DNA of 64,000 nt from an uncultured Spirochaetaceae bacterium. GTDB lineage: Bacteria; Spirochaetota; Spirochaetia; Sphaerochaetales; Sphaerochaetaceae. The notes under the pieces are model-generated. The model did not search any database, was not told where the DNA came from, and saw nothing but the letters and a program-made list of their open reading frames with translations. Below, one piece after another: positions 49,106-55,354 of this stretch; position 1 is the first letter of the stretch, and every line of letters starts with the position of its first letter. The translations under genes were made by a program, and so were the position numbers. The stretch covers positions 62,001-126,000 of the forward strand of contig CALXLA010000034.1 in the NCBI GenBank assembly GCA_944389075.1, read 5' to 3'.

Positions 49106-49129
49106 CTTGAAAAACGGCTTATCCGCTGT

Positions 49130-49135
49130 TACCTT
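49130..49135 (+). promoter_or_regulatory. -10 box TACCTT, leaderless M16C protease gene
   Basis: TACCTT ends 7 nt before the ATG at 49143. No ribosome site. Confidence 0.4.
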
Positions 49136-49142
49136 TTCTTTT

Positions 49143-51995
49143 ATGGATCATAGAGAGGGCGATGTTATTCATGGTTTCTGCGTCACGGAGAATGCCGATC
49201 TTCCTGATTATAAGGGCAGGGGTATCCTCTTCAGGCATTTAAAGACAGGTTTCCGGGTCTATTTCGTGGAAAATGATGACAGGGAACAGCTTTTTTCCTA
49301 TGTCGTATATACACCACCTGCATCATCGAAGGGCATAAGCCATATAATCGAACATACGGTATTGGCTGGAAGCAGCAAGTATCCTGTAAAAGATCCGTTC
49401 ATGCTTCTGGTCCGCAATAGTCCGAATACGTATCTCAATGCGCTCACCGGTGTGGATAGGACATATTATCCTGCGGCAAGCACAGTCAGGAAGGATATAG
49501 ACAATATATTCGCCGTCTATACGGATGCGGTATTCAGCCCGCTTCTCCGTGAAGAGACTTTCATGCAGGAGGGGATAAGGATATCTAAGGAAGGGAAGCC
49601 GCATTTCGAAGGGGTCGTATACTCTGAGATGTTCGGTGTAATGGCAGATCATGAGTCAGTCGTATCGTCTGCGGTTTTCAAGCCTCTTTTCGGAGACAGC
49701 CCTTATCAGTGGGAGTCCGGAGGCGATTGCAGGGAAATAGCAAGACTCACATATGAAGAGTATCTTTCTGAATGGAGAAGGTTCTATGTTCCCTCGAATA
49801 TCTATCTCTTCATATATGGCGATGCGGATATCGATGAGAAACTGAAGGTTCTGGATGGATATCTTTCCGAACGCGATGGAGGAAGTCCTGTGGCGCGCGT
49901 AGGGCTTTCGGCGCGGTGGGATAAGCCCCGGATGCATAGGGCCGTCTCTGCTGCAGGTGATGGAGACAATGGTTCTTCCATACTTCTTTCATGGCTTCTT
50001 GGAGACGGGGTGGATCCTGTTGAGTCTGCGATCCTCTCACTTGCTGTCGATATCCTTCTGGGAGCTCCGGGCTGTCCTCTTTATAAGGCAATAATCGAAT
50101 CAGGTCTCGGTTCGGATCTTTCAACGGAAAGCGGTATGTGCTCATCATATAGGGAGCTTGCTTTCGCTGTGGGATTCGCAGGAGCTGAAGAGAAGAACGC
50201 AGGGAGGATAGAGGATTTTCTCCTGGATGCGCTCTCATCGATTGCCCGCGAAGGTCTGGATCCTATGCTTGTCGAGAGTGCCATACGGAAATGGGAATTC
50301 ACGCAGAAGGAAATCAAGGGTGGCGTCCCTAATGGGATGAGGCTGCTTTTTTCCGCTGATAAGGCACTTACGTTTGGCTTCAGCCCTGTCTCGCAGCTTT
50401 CCCCGTTTGCAGTGATTGATGAAGTGAAGATGCGGCTGAAGGATAATCCTCATCTCTTCGAGGACTGGATAATGAAGTCTCTTATCGATAATCCCCATCG
50501 CCTGCTGACGGTTGTTGCCAAAGATCCGATGTACAGCGCAGGACTGGAGCAGGAGATAGAGGAAATACTTGAAAGGCGGCTTCCTTCATATGGCAGCGAC
50601 AAAGAGGTATTGTTCAATAGCTTCCAGATTTCAGAGGATTCCGATGAGGCTAAGAAGACAGTTCCCCGTCTTTCAGTATCAGATCTTCCTGCAGAGTGCG
50701 ACATAATAAATCATGAAATCGTTGATGGCGTAATCACAGCGTCTATGACTACAGGCGGAATCGTATATACTGACATCCTCTTCGATGTTTCCGATTTCAG
50801 CTATGAAGAGCTTGATGTCCTTGTCGTGCTGACGCGTCTTCTTTCCATGTGCTCAGCTGCAGGAATGGATTACAGCAGGGTCATAACCGAATTGCGGTAT
50901 GTATCAGGCGGAAGTGTCTTCTATCTGGAATCAGGTGCAGATGCGGAAGGAAAGGAGAAGGTCTTCTTCACTGCAAGACTGAAATCACTTCCGGATCTTG
51001 TCGCTGATGGGCTTGATATTTACAGTAAGCTGTTCCTTGAGGCGGATCTGAAGGATGTCAGGCGCATCGCCGCAGCTCTTTCAGATATCCTTACGGAGTT
51101 CCAGTCAAATGCGATTCCGAGTGCGAATTCATTCGGGATATCATACGCATCGCAGTCCTTGTCGGCTTCCCTTTATATCGGTGAACGGATTACAGGCATC
51201 ACATGCTGGGAAGCTGTGAGGAAAATGTCTGAGGCGGATCCCACAGAGGTCTCCGCGGCCCTTGAGCATGTATACAGGAAGACATTCGCCAGAAGCCGGA
51301 TGATTATCCACATATCTGCTGAGAAGGAAGATATCCCAAATGCATGCAAAGCCGCCATGGCCCTGCGCTCATCGCTGCCTGAAGGCAGGATGGAGCATTC
51401 CTATGCCCATGTGATTCCGGAGTTCCCGCGCTGGACAGGATTCTCTGTTCCTTCGCAGGTGTCTTTTGTGTCGATGGCTGGGAGAGGAGCTTCTTTCACA
51501 TCAGCTGAGTCTCCTGCGGACAAGATGCTTCTCTCAATGCTCTCTTCCACTGTCTTATGGCAGAGAATAAGGGAGAAAGGCGGTGCATATGGAGCAGGCA
51601 TCGCACTTGATCCCATAGAGAGGTGCTGGTATTTCTATTCATATAGGGATCCGCGGATCGATGGCACCATTGATGATATGCTCACAGCGCTTGATGGCTT
51701 CTCTTTTGATGAGGAATCTCTGTCAGATGCGCTCATCGGAGAGCTTTCGAGGCTTGTCAAGCCTGTTGCCCCATCCTCAAAGGCAATGCTTGATCTGAGG
51801 CGCATCGTCTATTCGATAAAAGATGAGGACAGGAAGCTGAATCTCTGCCGTACTCTGTCTCTTACTGCCGATGATATCTCTCAGGCTGCTGATAGGTTCA
51901 GAGCATCTCTTGATGACTTCTGCTGTACAGTGATAGGCGGAGGAAAGGCGATAGGAGAGTCGGTGCATCCTTTCATCATAAAGTCATTGCTGTAA
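49143..51995 (+). CDS. M16C-family zinc metalloprotease (presequence-protease-like)
   Basis: 950 aa single-chain M16C protease made of two homologous halves. The inverted zinc motif is in KGISHIIEHTVLAGSSKYP (HxxEH near residue 61) and the third ligand Glu in EGVVYSEMFG. MLLVRNSPNTYLNALTG is a family hallmark. The C-terminal half includes WQRIREKGGAYGAGIALDP, the R/Y substrate-clamp segment. No signal peptide, so cytoplasmic degradation of short peptides is likely. The ATG 49143 matches the usual family N-terminus (GDVIHGFCVTE); an upstream TTG adds 12 residues. Confidence 0.92.
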   Translation: MDHREGDVIHGFCVTENADLPDYKGRGILFRHLKTGFRVYFVENDDREQLFSYVVYTPPASSKGISHIIEHTVLAGSSKYPVKDPFMLLVRNSPNTYLNALTGVDRTYYPAASTVRKDIDNIFAVYTDAVFSPLLREETFMQEGIRISKEGKPHFEGVVYSEMFGVMADHESVVSSAVFKPLFGDSPYQWESGGDCREIARLTYEEYLSEWRRFYVPSNIYLFIYGDADIDEKLKVLDGYLSERDGGSPVARVGLSARWDKPRMHRAVSAAGDGDNGSSILLSWLLGDGVDPVESAILSLAVDILLGAPGCPLYKAIIESGLGSDLSTESGMCSSYRELAFAVGFAGAEEKNAGRIEDFLLDALSSIAREGLDPMLVESAIRKWEFTQKEIKGGVPNGMRLLFSADKALTFGFSPVSQLSPFAVIDEVKMRLKDNPHLFEDWIMKSLIDNPHRLLTVVAKDPMYSAGLEQEIEEILERRLPSYGSDKEVLFNSFQISEDSDEAKKTVPRLSVSDLPAECDIINHEIVDGVITASMTTGGIVYTDILFDVSDFSYEELDVLVVLTRLLSMCSAAGMDYSRVITELRYVSGGSVFYLESGADAEGKEKVFFTARLKSLPDLVADGLDIYSKLFLEADLKDVRRIAAALSDILTEFQSNAIPSANSFGISYASQSLSASLYIGERITGITCWEAVRKMSEADPTEVSAALEHVYRKTFARSRMIIHISAEKEDIPNACKAAMALRSSLPEGRMEHSYAHVIPEFPRWTGFSVPSQVSFVSMAGRGASFTSAESPADKMLLSMLSSTVLWQRIREKGGAYGAGIALDPIERCWYFYSYRDPRIDGTIDDMLTALDGFSFDEESLSDALIGELSRLVKPVAPSSKAMLDLRRIVYSIKDEDRKLNLCRTLSLTADDISQAADRFRASLDDFCCTVIGGGKAIGESVHPFIIKSLL

Positions 51996-51999
51996 CCTC

Positions 52000-52029
52000 T
52001 TTACAAGCAGAGTTAAGATTCAGTACAAT
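52000..52029 (+). promoter_or_regulatory. Promoter of the rplM-rpsI operon
   Basis: TTTACA (52000-52005), 18-bp spacer, TACAAT (52024-52029). Confidence 0.65.
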
Positions 52030-52035
52030 GCATAA

Positions 52036-52240
52036 TTGCGCGGAAAAATCCGTGCACTCTCGCACAAGGCTTGTGCAGGATATCCTGAGGATAACCGCTT
52101 GTTCATGGGTTCCGAAGAGCAATCTTCAGAATCTTCCTTTCCCCGGAAAACCCATGGATGATGATGGCCCGATGGATTCGGTGAACCTGTTCATGTCTGG
52201 TTCCTTGGCTGGACCTGTGTGCCGGTTATCCGGGAAGGAA
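52036..52240 (+). ncRNA. Long structured leader RNA of rplM
   Basis: Between promoter and rplM lie about 240 nt with dense pairing. GCGCGGA/TCCGTGC with AAAA loop (52038-52055). GCACAA/TTGTGC (52062-52076). The 12-nt palindrome CAGGATATCCTG (52076-52087). A long-range pair GGATAACCG (52089-52097) with CGGTTATCC (52223-52231). Inside it CATGGGTT (52104-52111) with AACCCATG (52149-52156), and GAAGA-GCAA-TCTTC (52114-52127). It does not show RNase P, SRP or tmRNA signatures. A regulatory leader, possibly for L13 autogenous control, is the likeliest reading. Confidence 0.6.
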
Positions 52241-52278
52241 GTTTTCCATTCAGAGAATAAAAGAGAAGGATTCAGTTT

Positions 52279-52707
52279 ATGAAGACTATTTTCGTAAAGC
52301 CTCAGTCGGTTGAGAAGAAGTGGTATCTCATCGATGCAGAGGGCAAGAACCTCGGACGTGTCGCAGTTGCAGCTGCAAGGATCCTCAGGGGTAAGAATAA
52401 AGCTGAGTACGTACCGCACCAGGATCTGGGCGACTACGTTATCATCATCAATGCAGCCAAGGCTACAGTCACCGGCAATAAGATGGAAGATAAGATGTAT
52501 TATCGCCACTCCATGTATCCAGGTGGACTTAAGGCAGAGTCTCTTGAGAAGGTTCTCGTGAGAAAGCCTACATATCCTATGGAACATGCAATCAAGGGTA
52601 TGCTTCCTCACGGAAGGCTTGGCAGAAAGCTCATGACCAACGTGAAGATCTATGCAGGAAGCGAGCATCCGCATACAGCACAGCAGCCAGTTGCTGTTGA
52701 GATTTAA
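52279..52707 (+). CDS. rplM: 50S ribosomal protein L13
   Basis: 142 aa. Family pattern KTIFVKPQSVEKKWYLIDAE, GKNLGRVAVAAARILRGK, HQDLGDYVIIINAAKATVTG and YRHSMYPGGLKAESL; the end HPHTAQQPVAVEI is standard. In E. coli L13 represses its own operon through the mRNA leader. AGAAGGA precedes the ATG. Co-transcribed with rpsI 11 bp downstream. Confidence 0.98.
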   Translation: MKTIFVKPQSVEKKWYLIDAEGKNLGRVAVAAARILRGKNKAEYVPHQDLGDYVIIINAAKATVTGNKMEDKMYYRHSMYPGGLKAESLEKVLVRKPTYPMEHAIKGMLPHGRLGRKLMTNVKIYAGSEHPHTAQQPVAVEI

Positions 52708-52718
52708 GGAGAGGCGAA

Positions 52719-53132
52719 ATGGCTAAGAACGAAGAGAAGAAGAATATCAATCTCGCACATGGAGTTGGTCGCCGCAAGACCTCTGTTGCCAGAGTCTATC
52801 TCCGCGATGGAAATGGCAAAGTGACAATCAATGGCAGGGACATCGCAGTTTATTTCGTTGATGCGGCTAATGCAAATAAGGTTGTCCAGCCATTCGAAGT
52901 AACTGAGACTCAGGGAAAGTATGACCTTGTCATTACAGTTGCCGGTGGTGGTATCTGCTCACAGGCAGAAGCTTGCAGACATGGTCTCTCAAGAGCTCTT
53001 GTCGCATATGATGAGACATATCGCCATGCTCTCCGTGAAGCTGGCTTCATGACAAGAGACTCGAGAATGGTCGAGAGAAAGAAGTATGGACAGCGCGGTG
53101 CAAGAAGGCGCTTCCAGTTCTCAAAGAGATAA
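52719..53132 (+). CDS. rpsI: 30S ribosomal protein S9
   Basis: 137 aa. GVGRRKTSVARVYLRDGNGK and VTINGRDIAVYF at the N-terminal half, GGICSQAEACRHGLSRALVA in the middle, and the basic tail RKKYGQRGARRRFQFSKR that reaches the decoding site. Complete. GGAG lies before the ATG. The rplM-rpsI pair ends at an intrinsic terminator. Confidence 0.98.
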   Translation: MAKNEEKKNINLAHGVGRRKTSVARVYLRDGNGKVTINGRDIAVYFVDAANANKVVQPFEVTETQGKYDLVITVAGGGICSQAEACRHGLSRALVAYDETYRHALREAGFMTRDSRMVERKKYGQRGARRRFQFSKR

Positions 53133-53152
53133 TCGGAATTCTCCGGTATCAG

Positions 53153-53190
53153 CTGCCCGTGCGGAATGCGTGGGCAGTTTTTTCTTTTTC
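53153..53190 (+). terminator. Terminator after rpsI
   Basis: CTGCCCGTGC and GCGTGGGCAG (two G-U pairs), then TTTTTTCTTTTT. Confidence 0.9.
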
Positions 53191-53212: not shown

Positions 53213-53665
53213 ATGACTTGCTATGATAAGGCTGTATCGCTTCTGGCCATAAGGGAGCATACTGAGAAGGAACTGAAAGCGAAGCTGAAGGCAAAAGGCT
53301 ACAGCGATGATGATATCTCAGCATCAATTGCGCGATTGAAGGATGAGAAGTATCTGTCTGAAGAGAGATTCGCTGCATCGTTCATACGCTCAAGGCTCAG
53401 GAAATCTCCGGAAGGAAAGGGCATGCTTCTTATGCGTCTCATAGAGAAAGGCTCTCCAAGGCAGGTTGCCTCTGATGCTGTGAGAAATGCATGGGAAGAG
53501 GAAGCATATTCCGGGCCGCTTATCAGATACGCCAGTTCCCTTATCGCAAAGAAAGGGGAGGAAGGCACTAAGGCCGTCCTCCTCAGAAAAGGCTTCACGC
53601 CATCTGAAATCTCATCATGCCTGAAGGCTATTGCTGACGAACGAGAAGGAATCGACGTCGAATAG
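53213..53665 (+). CDS. recX: Regulatory protein RecX
   Basis: 150 aa, three-helix-repeat protein that modulates RecA filaments. YDKAVSLLAIREHTEKELKA, KGYSDDDISASIARLKDEKY and LSEERFAASFIRSRLR are the first repeats; GPLIRYASSLIAKKGEEG and LLRKGFTPSEISSCLKAI the later ones. recA is not in the window. Its last 51 bp overlap the opposite-strand ade gene, the longest tail overlap here. Confidence 0.92.
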   Translation: MTCYDKAVSLLAIREHTEKELKAKLKAKGYSDDDISASIARLKDEKYLSEERFAASFIRSRLRKSPEGKGMLLMRLIEKGSPRQVASDAVRNAWEEEAYSGPLIRYASSLIAKKGEEGTKAVLLRKGFTPSEISSCLKAIADEREGIDVE

Positions 53666-55354
53666 CCCGCAATCAGTGAGCTTCAGCGAAGGAATGACGG
53701 GAAGAGCCATGAAGCACAGCGTCATGAAGGGATCGATGTCCTTGTTTATGCCAAGCTTCTCATAGGCGGTGTCATGCATCTTCTCAAGGCAATCGACTAC
53801 TGATTCCGCGCTATCATCTGTCATAAGCCCCGCAATCTCAAGCCTGTGAGTGCCAAGCTCCTTACCATCCTTGAACATCGTGATCCCGCCACCTATCTCA
53901 ATGAGCTTCCTGATAGCATCAGCCATGTCGCCATCATTGTCTCCAATCACGATGATATTGTGTGAATCATGGGCAATCGATGTTGCTACAGCACCATGTT
54001 TCATGCCATAGCCACGAATCAGGCATGCAGACGCATTGCCAGTCCCATGATGACGTTCAATGACTGCAAGTTTCAGTACATCCTCTTCAGGATCATGGAT
54101 CCAGTTCCCGTTATTGTCCCTTTTCACGTGAACCTCTCCTTTTCCTGTCACGACGCCTCCCGGTATTATGTCGATGCATCTTGCCTTATCGGACTCCAGG
54201 ATAAGGCTAAGCTTTGATTCCGAGAAGTCCTTCACATCCATCTTGCCGCTGACTTCCTCAGGAGCAGTATGCGGGGCCTTCCTTATGATCTTCCCACCTT
54301 TTGCTGTGAGATTGCCGGAAATCCAGACTTCGTCAGCTTTGATATTCTCGAGCGTTTCTGTGAGGAAGAAGTCTGCGCGGCGTCCGGGTGCTATTGCTCC
54401 TCTGTCTCTCAGTCCATAGCATTCAGCTGCATTGAGAGTTGCCATCGCAATGGCTGTGACAGGATCGAGGCCTGCATTTATCGCAAGGTGTATGCCATTG
54501 ATAAGCGCGCCTTCCGTCATCATAGTCTGTGGCTGACAGTCATCCGTGCAGAAGAGGATTCTCTTCCAGTTCTTCTCGTCAACGCCTGGCAGAAGTCTCA
54601 GCACATTGCGGCATGCCGTACCCTGCCTGAGCATCACATACATTCCCTTCGAAGTCTTCTCCCTGAGCTCTTCAGGAGTCTCGCATTCATGATCTGTTGA
54701 GATTCCTGCTGCGATATATGCATCAAGTCCGGCTCCTGTGATTGATGGAGCATGTCCGTCGATGTTCTTTCCTGTCCTGTATGCAGTTTCAAGCTTCGCT
54801 ATCACATCAGGATCCGCGCTGACGACTCCCGGGTAGTTCATCATCTCTCCAAGTCCCCGTATCCTGTCATTGTCTATGTATTTTGCAATATCTTCAGCCT
54901 TGAGCACGGCCCCTGAGTGCTCGAATGGCGTTGCAGGCACACATGACGGAATCATCAGATATACCGAAAGGGGAATCTTGTCGGATGCCTTAAGCATGTA
55001 ATCCAGTCCAGCAAGTCCGCATACATTGCATATTTCATGAGGATCTGCGATTACAGTGGCAGTGCCTCCCGGTACGATTGCATCAGAATATTCGGAAGGA
55101 GAGAGATGCGAGCTTTCGATATGGCAATGGGCATCTATCAAGCCGGGAACGAGATAACGTCCTCCTGCGTCAATTTCCTCAGATGCTTCTATGCCATCTG
55201 CTGAACCTGCTATGTATCCGTTCTTCACTGCTATGCTTCCTGTCTCTATAGCGCGCGTGAACACATTGACGATTCTTGCATTCCTGATGGCCAGATCGGC
55301 TTTTGCCCTGCCCATCATGACATCGATAAGAGCTTTTGCGGTATCTTTGTTCAT
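53615..55354 (-). CDS. ade: Adenine deaminase
   Basis: 579 aa amidohydrolase converting adenine to hypoxanthine in purine salvage. Metal site LVPGLIDAHCHIESSHLSPS (about residues 70-89), then VIADPHEICNVCGLAGLDYM, KNIDGHAPSITGAG, GISTDHECETPEEL and FCTDDCQP, with the C-terminal domain AVIERHHGTGNASACLIRGY and ATSIAHDSHNIIVIG. Complete. GAGGTGA precedes the ATG, with TACAAT a little further upstream. Overlaps recX by 51 bp. Confidence 0.95.
   Translation of the reverse strand: MNKDTAKALIDVMMGRAKADLAIRNARIVNVFTRAIETGSIAVKNGYIAGSADGIEASEEIDAGGRYLVPGLIDAHCHIESSHLSPSEYSDAIVPGGTATVIADPHEICNVCGLAGLDYMLKASDKIPLSVYLMIPSCVPATPFEHSGAVLKAEDIAKYIDNDRIRGLGEMMNYPGVVSADPDVIAKLETAYRTGKNIDGHAPSITGAGLDAYIAAGISTDHECETPEELREKTSKGMYVMLRQGTACRNVLRLLPGVDEKNWKRILFCTDDCQPQTMMTEGALINGIHLAINAGLDPVTAIAMATLNAAECYGLRDRGAIAPGRRADFFLTETLENIKADEVWISGNLTAKGGKIIRKAPHTAPEEVSGKMDVKDFSESKLSLILESDKARCIDIIPGGVVTGKGEVHVKRDNNGNWIHDPEEDVLKLAVIERHHGTGNASACLIRGYGMKHGAVATSIAHDSHNIIVIGDNDGDMADAIRKLIEIGGGITMFKDGKELGTHRLEIAGLMTDDSAESVVDCLEKMHDTAYEKLGINKDIDPFMTLCFMALPVIPSLKLTDCGLFDVDSFSFVSNSLQA

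Follow-up and report, generated by a model that had tools for sequence, protein, structure and literature searches.

The rplM-rpsI mRNA of this uncultured spirochaete opens with a structured 5' untranslated leader of about 240 bases, which lies between a TTTACA-18-TACAAT promoter and the start of ribosomal protein L13 and whose fold is conserved and covaries among related leaders of its genus. We read it as a cis-acting element, most likely one that L13 itself senses to control translation autogenously, and put the chance that this is right at roughly 70%; the proposed ligand comes from gene association. The RNA is best described as a new structural design of ribosomal-protein leader, outside the L13 leaders of Rfam. 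Our starting point was a preliminary description of the window (the whole 64,000-nucleotide stretch of DNA analyzed, in whose coordinates all positions are given), drawn from the sequence alone. It had proposed a structured RNA ahead of rplM that was either a new ribosomal-protein leader or an RNA released from the 5' end. Its account of the extent of the RNA was right and much of the rest stood, namely the presence of a structured RNA, the promoter and several of the stems; a long-range pair and a second 5' hairpin did not.

Between the end of the promoter at 52029 and the L13 ATG at 52279 lie 249 nt, and the 5' end of the RNA is probably near 52036, judging from the position of the promoter (Table 1). 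The promoter had been picked out in the preliminary description; our scan found it too, and most congeners carry one, usually as TTTACA-18-TATAAT. The same scan for terminator-like hairpins on the plus strand gave none between promoter and rplM. What lies upstream of the promoter differs: the window and one relative have an M16C peptidase gene there, other loci a UvrD-like helicase or some other gene; since this neighbor changes while the leader stays, the leader RNA goes with rplM. At the other end of the operon, the 3' ends of recX and the adenine deaminase ORF overlap.

Table 1. Features of the rplM-rpsI leader and its surroundings in the window.
Feature	Position	Strand	Basis or remarks
M16C/PreP-like peptidase, neighbor	49107-51995		
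Sigma-70-type promoter of rplM operon, TTTACA-18-TACAAT	52000-52029	+	scan; same place in most aligned congeners
-35 hexamer TTTACA	52000-52005	+	18-nt spacer, then -10 TACAAT at 52024-52029
P1, 5' hairpin	52038-52055	+	6 pairs, 0 broken in 18 sequences, 4 changed on both sides
P2 5' strand CTCT	52057-52060	+	pairs with AGAG 52252-52255; 100% of cells paired; UA/CG exchange in one pair
P3 5' strand CGCAC	52061-52065	+	pairs with GTGTG 52217-52221; 99.3% of cells paired; 4 of 5 pairs changed on both sides
P4o 5' strand GCAGG, outer helix of internal loop	52075-52079	+	pairs with 52186-52190
Internal loop 5' side AUAU, running into P4i	52080-52085	+	conserved sequence
P4i AUCC	52082-52085	+	pairs with 52174-52177; 96% paired, mostly one-sided changes
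P5 5' strand CATGGGTT	52104-52111	+	pairs with AACCCATG 52149-52156; 4-5 pairs changed on both sides across genus
P6 hairpin GAAGA-GCAA-UCUUC, GNRA tetraloop	52114-52127	+	stem invariant in 27 sequences
P7 hairpin UUCC-UUUCCCC-GGAA, conserved loop	52134-52148	+	99% paired
AUUCGGUGAA, end of P4i (52176-52177) and internal loop 3' side	52176-52185	+	conserved motif
P8, optional hairpin	52199-52215	+	99% paired where present; GC/AU exchange in one pair; missing from 3 of 27 leaders
Shine-Dalgarno region of rplM, GAGAAGGA	52263-52270	+	sequence reading
rplM, ribosomal protein L13	52279-52707	+	PF00572, E 7.9e-44
rpsI, ribosomal protein S9	52719-53132	+	PF00380, E 1.1e-48
Terminator-like hairpin 3' of rpsI	53151-53179	+	13 pairs, then T run
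RecX, neighbor	53213-53665		
Adenine deaminase, neighbor	53615-55354	opposite	

Taken by itself, the window sequence folds only modestly better than its shuffles (z = -2.05, with 8 of 200 shuffles folding equally well). At about two standard deviations this margin is the one thing that speaks for chance folding of a GC-containing intergenic region, and it is why the question was settled by comparison with relatives. The alignment of the window's own leader type, group A, holds 27 loci, the window and 26 relatives. Counted over the entire structure, double-sided changes are seen in 50 cells, whereas shuffles give 21.4 and sliding the strands never gives more than 21; as shuffling does not remove relatedness, these figures are strong support rather than probabilities. 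These counts, with conservation across the genus, refute chance folding and leave it next to no probability. Compensatory changes in relatives were the evidence that the preliminary description had proposed to look for, and they back the 5' hairpin P1, the long-range helices P2 and P3, P4o and P5. What the relatives share is the hallmark of a ribosomal-protein leader: conserved and covarying RNA structure within the 5' UTR of an operon for ribosomal proteins.

Two of these helices, P5 and P4o, were missed by RNAalifold on the MAFFT alignment through one-base slips, and both were counted on core or anchored alignments. P4o is canonical in 129 of 135 cells across the 27 sequences, where shuffles average 88 and reach 110 at most; its strands were assigned by flanking motifs and not by complementarity, so the count is not a fitted result. 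Between P4o and P4i, which closes it from inside, sits a conserved internal loop, AUAU / UUCGGUGAA, the 3' side of which reads UUCGGUGA(A). Within it TTCGGTGA is unchanged in all 27 group A leaders, and GGUGAA or GGUGAG is found as well in divergent congeners and in a second genus. P5 keeps its pairing through turnover of sequence, being CAUGGGUU/AACCCAUG in the window and GGAG/CUCC, CAGGU/ACCUG or CGAG/CUCG elsewhere, while the loop of P6 is GCAA, GCGA or GAAA in all but one of the 27 sequences. The nested CATGGGTT/AACCCATG stem and the GCAA-tetraloop hairpin at 52114-52127, both of which had been noticed at the outset, are there in the sequence and conserved, the former with double-sided changes. 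Of the two 5' hairpins noticed with them, the first (52038-52055) is conserved; the second, GCACAAGGCTTGTGC, is not general and is a rival to a long-range helix that covaries. Nor was the long-range GGATAACCG/CGGTTATCC pair upheld. It is a 9-nt complement in the window genome (52089-52097 with 52223-52231) that recurs as the same pair in 0 of 26 aligned relatives. The best complements that the relatives offer there are mostly no longer than those of shuffles, and the stem, which would cross P4o and P4i, was rejected.

Conservation in this region might in principle belong to a peptide. An upstream ORF of 84 amino acids (52028-52282) does exist in the window, its stop overlapping the rplM ATG, and were it translated, coupling to rplM rather than RNA structure could be what is conserved. 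Its start codon, though, spans the -10 hexamer, before the point where transcription probably begins, and each of the 26 relatives has one to six stops in this frame, which refutes the idea and leaves it a vanishingly small likelihood.

Related leaders precede rplM throughout the genus. Their length is about 200-280 nt, in some cases more; in most of them the same promoter leads into a hairpin, with common motifs downstream. They fall into four sub-types, of which B, C and D are more divergent than group A; most members of these three share CUUUCCC or CUUCCCA with GGUGAA or GGUGAG some 30-40 nt further on. Five loci (L011, L023, L029, L050 and L177) have a longer leader with extra hairpins in which CCUUUCCC...CGGUGAAC is kept, and are without the TTTACA-18-TATAAT promoter at its usual place. 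A covariance model, R1, built from 21 core leader sequences gave 27 strong matches and one moderate match among 48 congeners, each the sole match in its genome and each adjoining rplM; a further four matches were weak, none with an E better than 0.28, and three of these also lie at rplM. R1 reaches the divergent congeners unreliably, and their membership is a matter of position, promoter and motifs. Outside the genus, it found no match among 393 sampled genomes of the phylum.

With a pattern for the leader core we also scanned 84,980 species, each represented by one genome. Core matches in spirochaetes were solely beside rplM, one locus (L114) being truncated before the gene but on a contig of the same size as a known rplM contig; those in other phyla had no L13 nearby and look like chance. 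Within the spirochaetes the association with the gene of the presumed ligand is consistent and exclusive, with at most one copy per genome. This strict association, together with the changing upstream gene and the lack of a terminator before rplM, supports the suggestion of a new ribosomal-protein leader.

No known RNA class accounts for it. An Rfam scan, the other check that had been proposed, gave no match in the window at curated thresholds, and what permissive ones brought up there was unrelated families at chance level; no family of Rfam 15, which includes the L13 leader families, matched in the window or in 30 related loci, even permissively. RNase P RNA (RF00010), considered as an identity for the leader, has no match there, and the genome's copy lies elsewhere (G000:C20:49544-49863). 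Seven loci (L012, L019, L023, L011, L050, L016 and L219) gave sub-threshold matches to n00280, a C. difficile sRNA placed within a helicase gene. These are probably conserved coding sequence, the upstream gene in several being a UvrD-like helicase.

A free-standing or processed small RNA that merely happens to sit upstream of rplM, a 6S-like RNA for example, would also possess its own promoter and 5' hairpin. The 6S model (RF00013) has no match in the window, its own genome or 12 congeners, hence nothing in the 13 genus genomes G000-G012, and yet in other families of the class it succeeds in five of eight genomes; the genus has either lost 6S RNA or carries one too diverged to detect. That gap is what a 6S-like reading might fill. 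Against it, there is no terminator before rplM, the conserved structure (P2) reaches to about 10 nt before the Shine-Dalgarno, and the leader stays beside rplM though the upstream gene changes. Rfam's 6S model matches neither the window nor relatives, and in shape the RNA is branched, unlike 6S with its long rod and central bubble. We consider a separate small RNA very improbable, and found no support for an RNA released from the 5' end.

One element of the leader extends well beyond the genus. The loop motif CCUU(U)CCC occurs in 70 of 89 rplM leaders of the family, in 12 of 21 sampled genera, against a chance expectation of 1.2% per leader. The 15 rplM leaders sampled from the class's other families all lack it. 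Within several genera of the family it can occupy the loop of a simple hairpin, as in CUCAGGA-AACCUUUCCCUAA-UCCUGAG (L234) or AACCCC-UUUCCCAC-GGGGUU (L216), and in the second genus the same loop is combined with GGUGAG ahead of rplM. This distribution suggests a small ancestral hairpin that was elaborated in the window's genus. Eight loci from other genera of the family (L223-L226, L183, L211, L217 and L218) have short rplM leaders with no CCUUUCCC motif and a repeated look of their own, for example CCAUG...CUUGCAGAACAGGAUGAAUAG or GAACAUAGGGUUAUGUAG. They are possibly a different type of L13 leader.

How might such an RNA work? In the autogenous scheme, free L13 in excess over 23S rRNA would bind the AUAU / UUCGGUGAA loop, the apical P5-P6-P7 domain, or both, and so stabilize the long-range closure P2/P3. 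That closure, ending about 10 nt upstream of the Shine-Dalgarno, would hinder ribosome entry at rplM and, by coupling to rplM, translation of rpsI. We infer control of translation because there is no terminator and P2 closes so near the Shine-Dalgarno. L13 is the candidate ligand because E. coli L13 represses the same operon (PMC10931766) and other L13 leaders have been proposed (PMC7247131). The P7 loop CCUUUCCC is anti-Shine-Dalgarno-like and may add direct pairing with the Shine-Dalgarno, a tentative idea. AAGG is present in 56 of 70 family leaders with the motif and 4 of 19 without it, counts uncorrected for descent. It is present too in 8 of 15 leaders of other families, all without the motif, and since AAGG is so common there the likeness of P7 to an anti-Shine-Dalgarno may be trivial. 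A bolder joint reading is possible, with the odds against it as a whole: the family-wide CCUUUCCC loop would be an anti-Shine-Dalgarno mimic that, under repression, pairs with the AAGG of its own leader, L13 would exert control via the GGUGAA loop, an L13-recognition module unrelated to the described L13 leaders, and the minimal hairpin would be the ancestral switch that grew into a 240-nt RNA in the genus.

The operon could instead be governed in cis by another signal, with the leader sensing S9, another assembly factor, growth-rate signals or a metabolite. What points to L13 is, after all, gene association alone, and rpsI lies in the same operon; the RNA is also large, with several conserved unpaired elements, as metabolite-binding RNAs are. 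But rplM is the one gene that the leader precedes, while a metabolite riboswitch is usually found ahead of various kinds of gene, and in E. coli the operon is known to be regulated by L13. We therefore think a signal other than L13 unlikely. What counts against L13 as ligand is that the leader resembles the protein's rRNA no more than chance would allow: alignments of the leader with E. coli and four class-level 23S rRNAs were no better overall than those of shuffles, the class-level sequences coming from other class members as the Rfam LSU model found none in 13 draft-quality genomes. In some leaders GGAGCCGAAG resembles the start of 23S domain II; it is not common to all of them, and mimicry of 23S at the sequence level was set aside.

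The simple L13 leaders of Bacilli are smaller than the spirochaete leader, and to that extent the preliminary description was right about its size. In E. coli, L13 is a proven autogenous repressor of rplM-rpsI through a structured 5' UTR already 157 nt long (PMC10931766). That leader shares with ours the operon, a long structured 5' UTR, its own promoter, several conserved hairpins and presumed translational control by L13. Compared by eye, however, it has none of the spirochaete paired arrangement and no CCUUUCCC. The E. coli leader (L198:187-405) does carry UUUUCCCG in its first hairpin loop and GUGAACC downstream, faint likenesses to two spirochaete elements that may be chance. The Rfam L13 leader families of Bacilli/Firmicutes likewise precede rplM, but their covariance models do not match here. 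Closest in kind of evidence is a candidate from Bacteroidia, predicted by covariation upstream of rplM, rpsI (and rpsB), for which L13 was proposed as ligand by gene association, and which was presented as a Bacteroidetes leader of a third, structurally unrelated L13 type (PMC7247131). That description suggests a separate design from the RNA reported here, which has no Rfam match. In the literature searched we found no description of this RNA and no such leader for the spirochaete phylum.

Autogenous control by L13 has evolved several unrelated RNA solutions, and the spirochaete leader would add another. For the cell, it most likely provides a means to stop making L13 when enough is present. 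For the family, the leaders form a graded series, from short hairpins with the CCUUUCCC loop in many genera to the large multi-domain RNA in the window's genus, and that series opens the questions of how such a leader comes to grow and whether L13 uses one and the same face to recognize unrelated RNAs.
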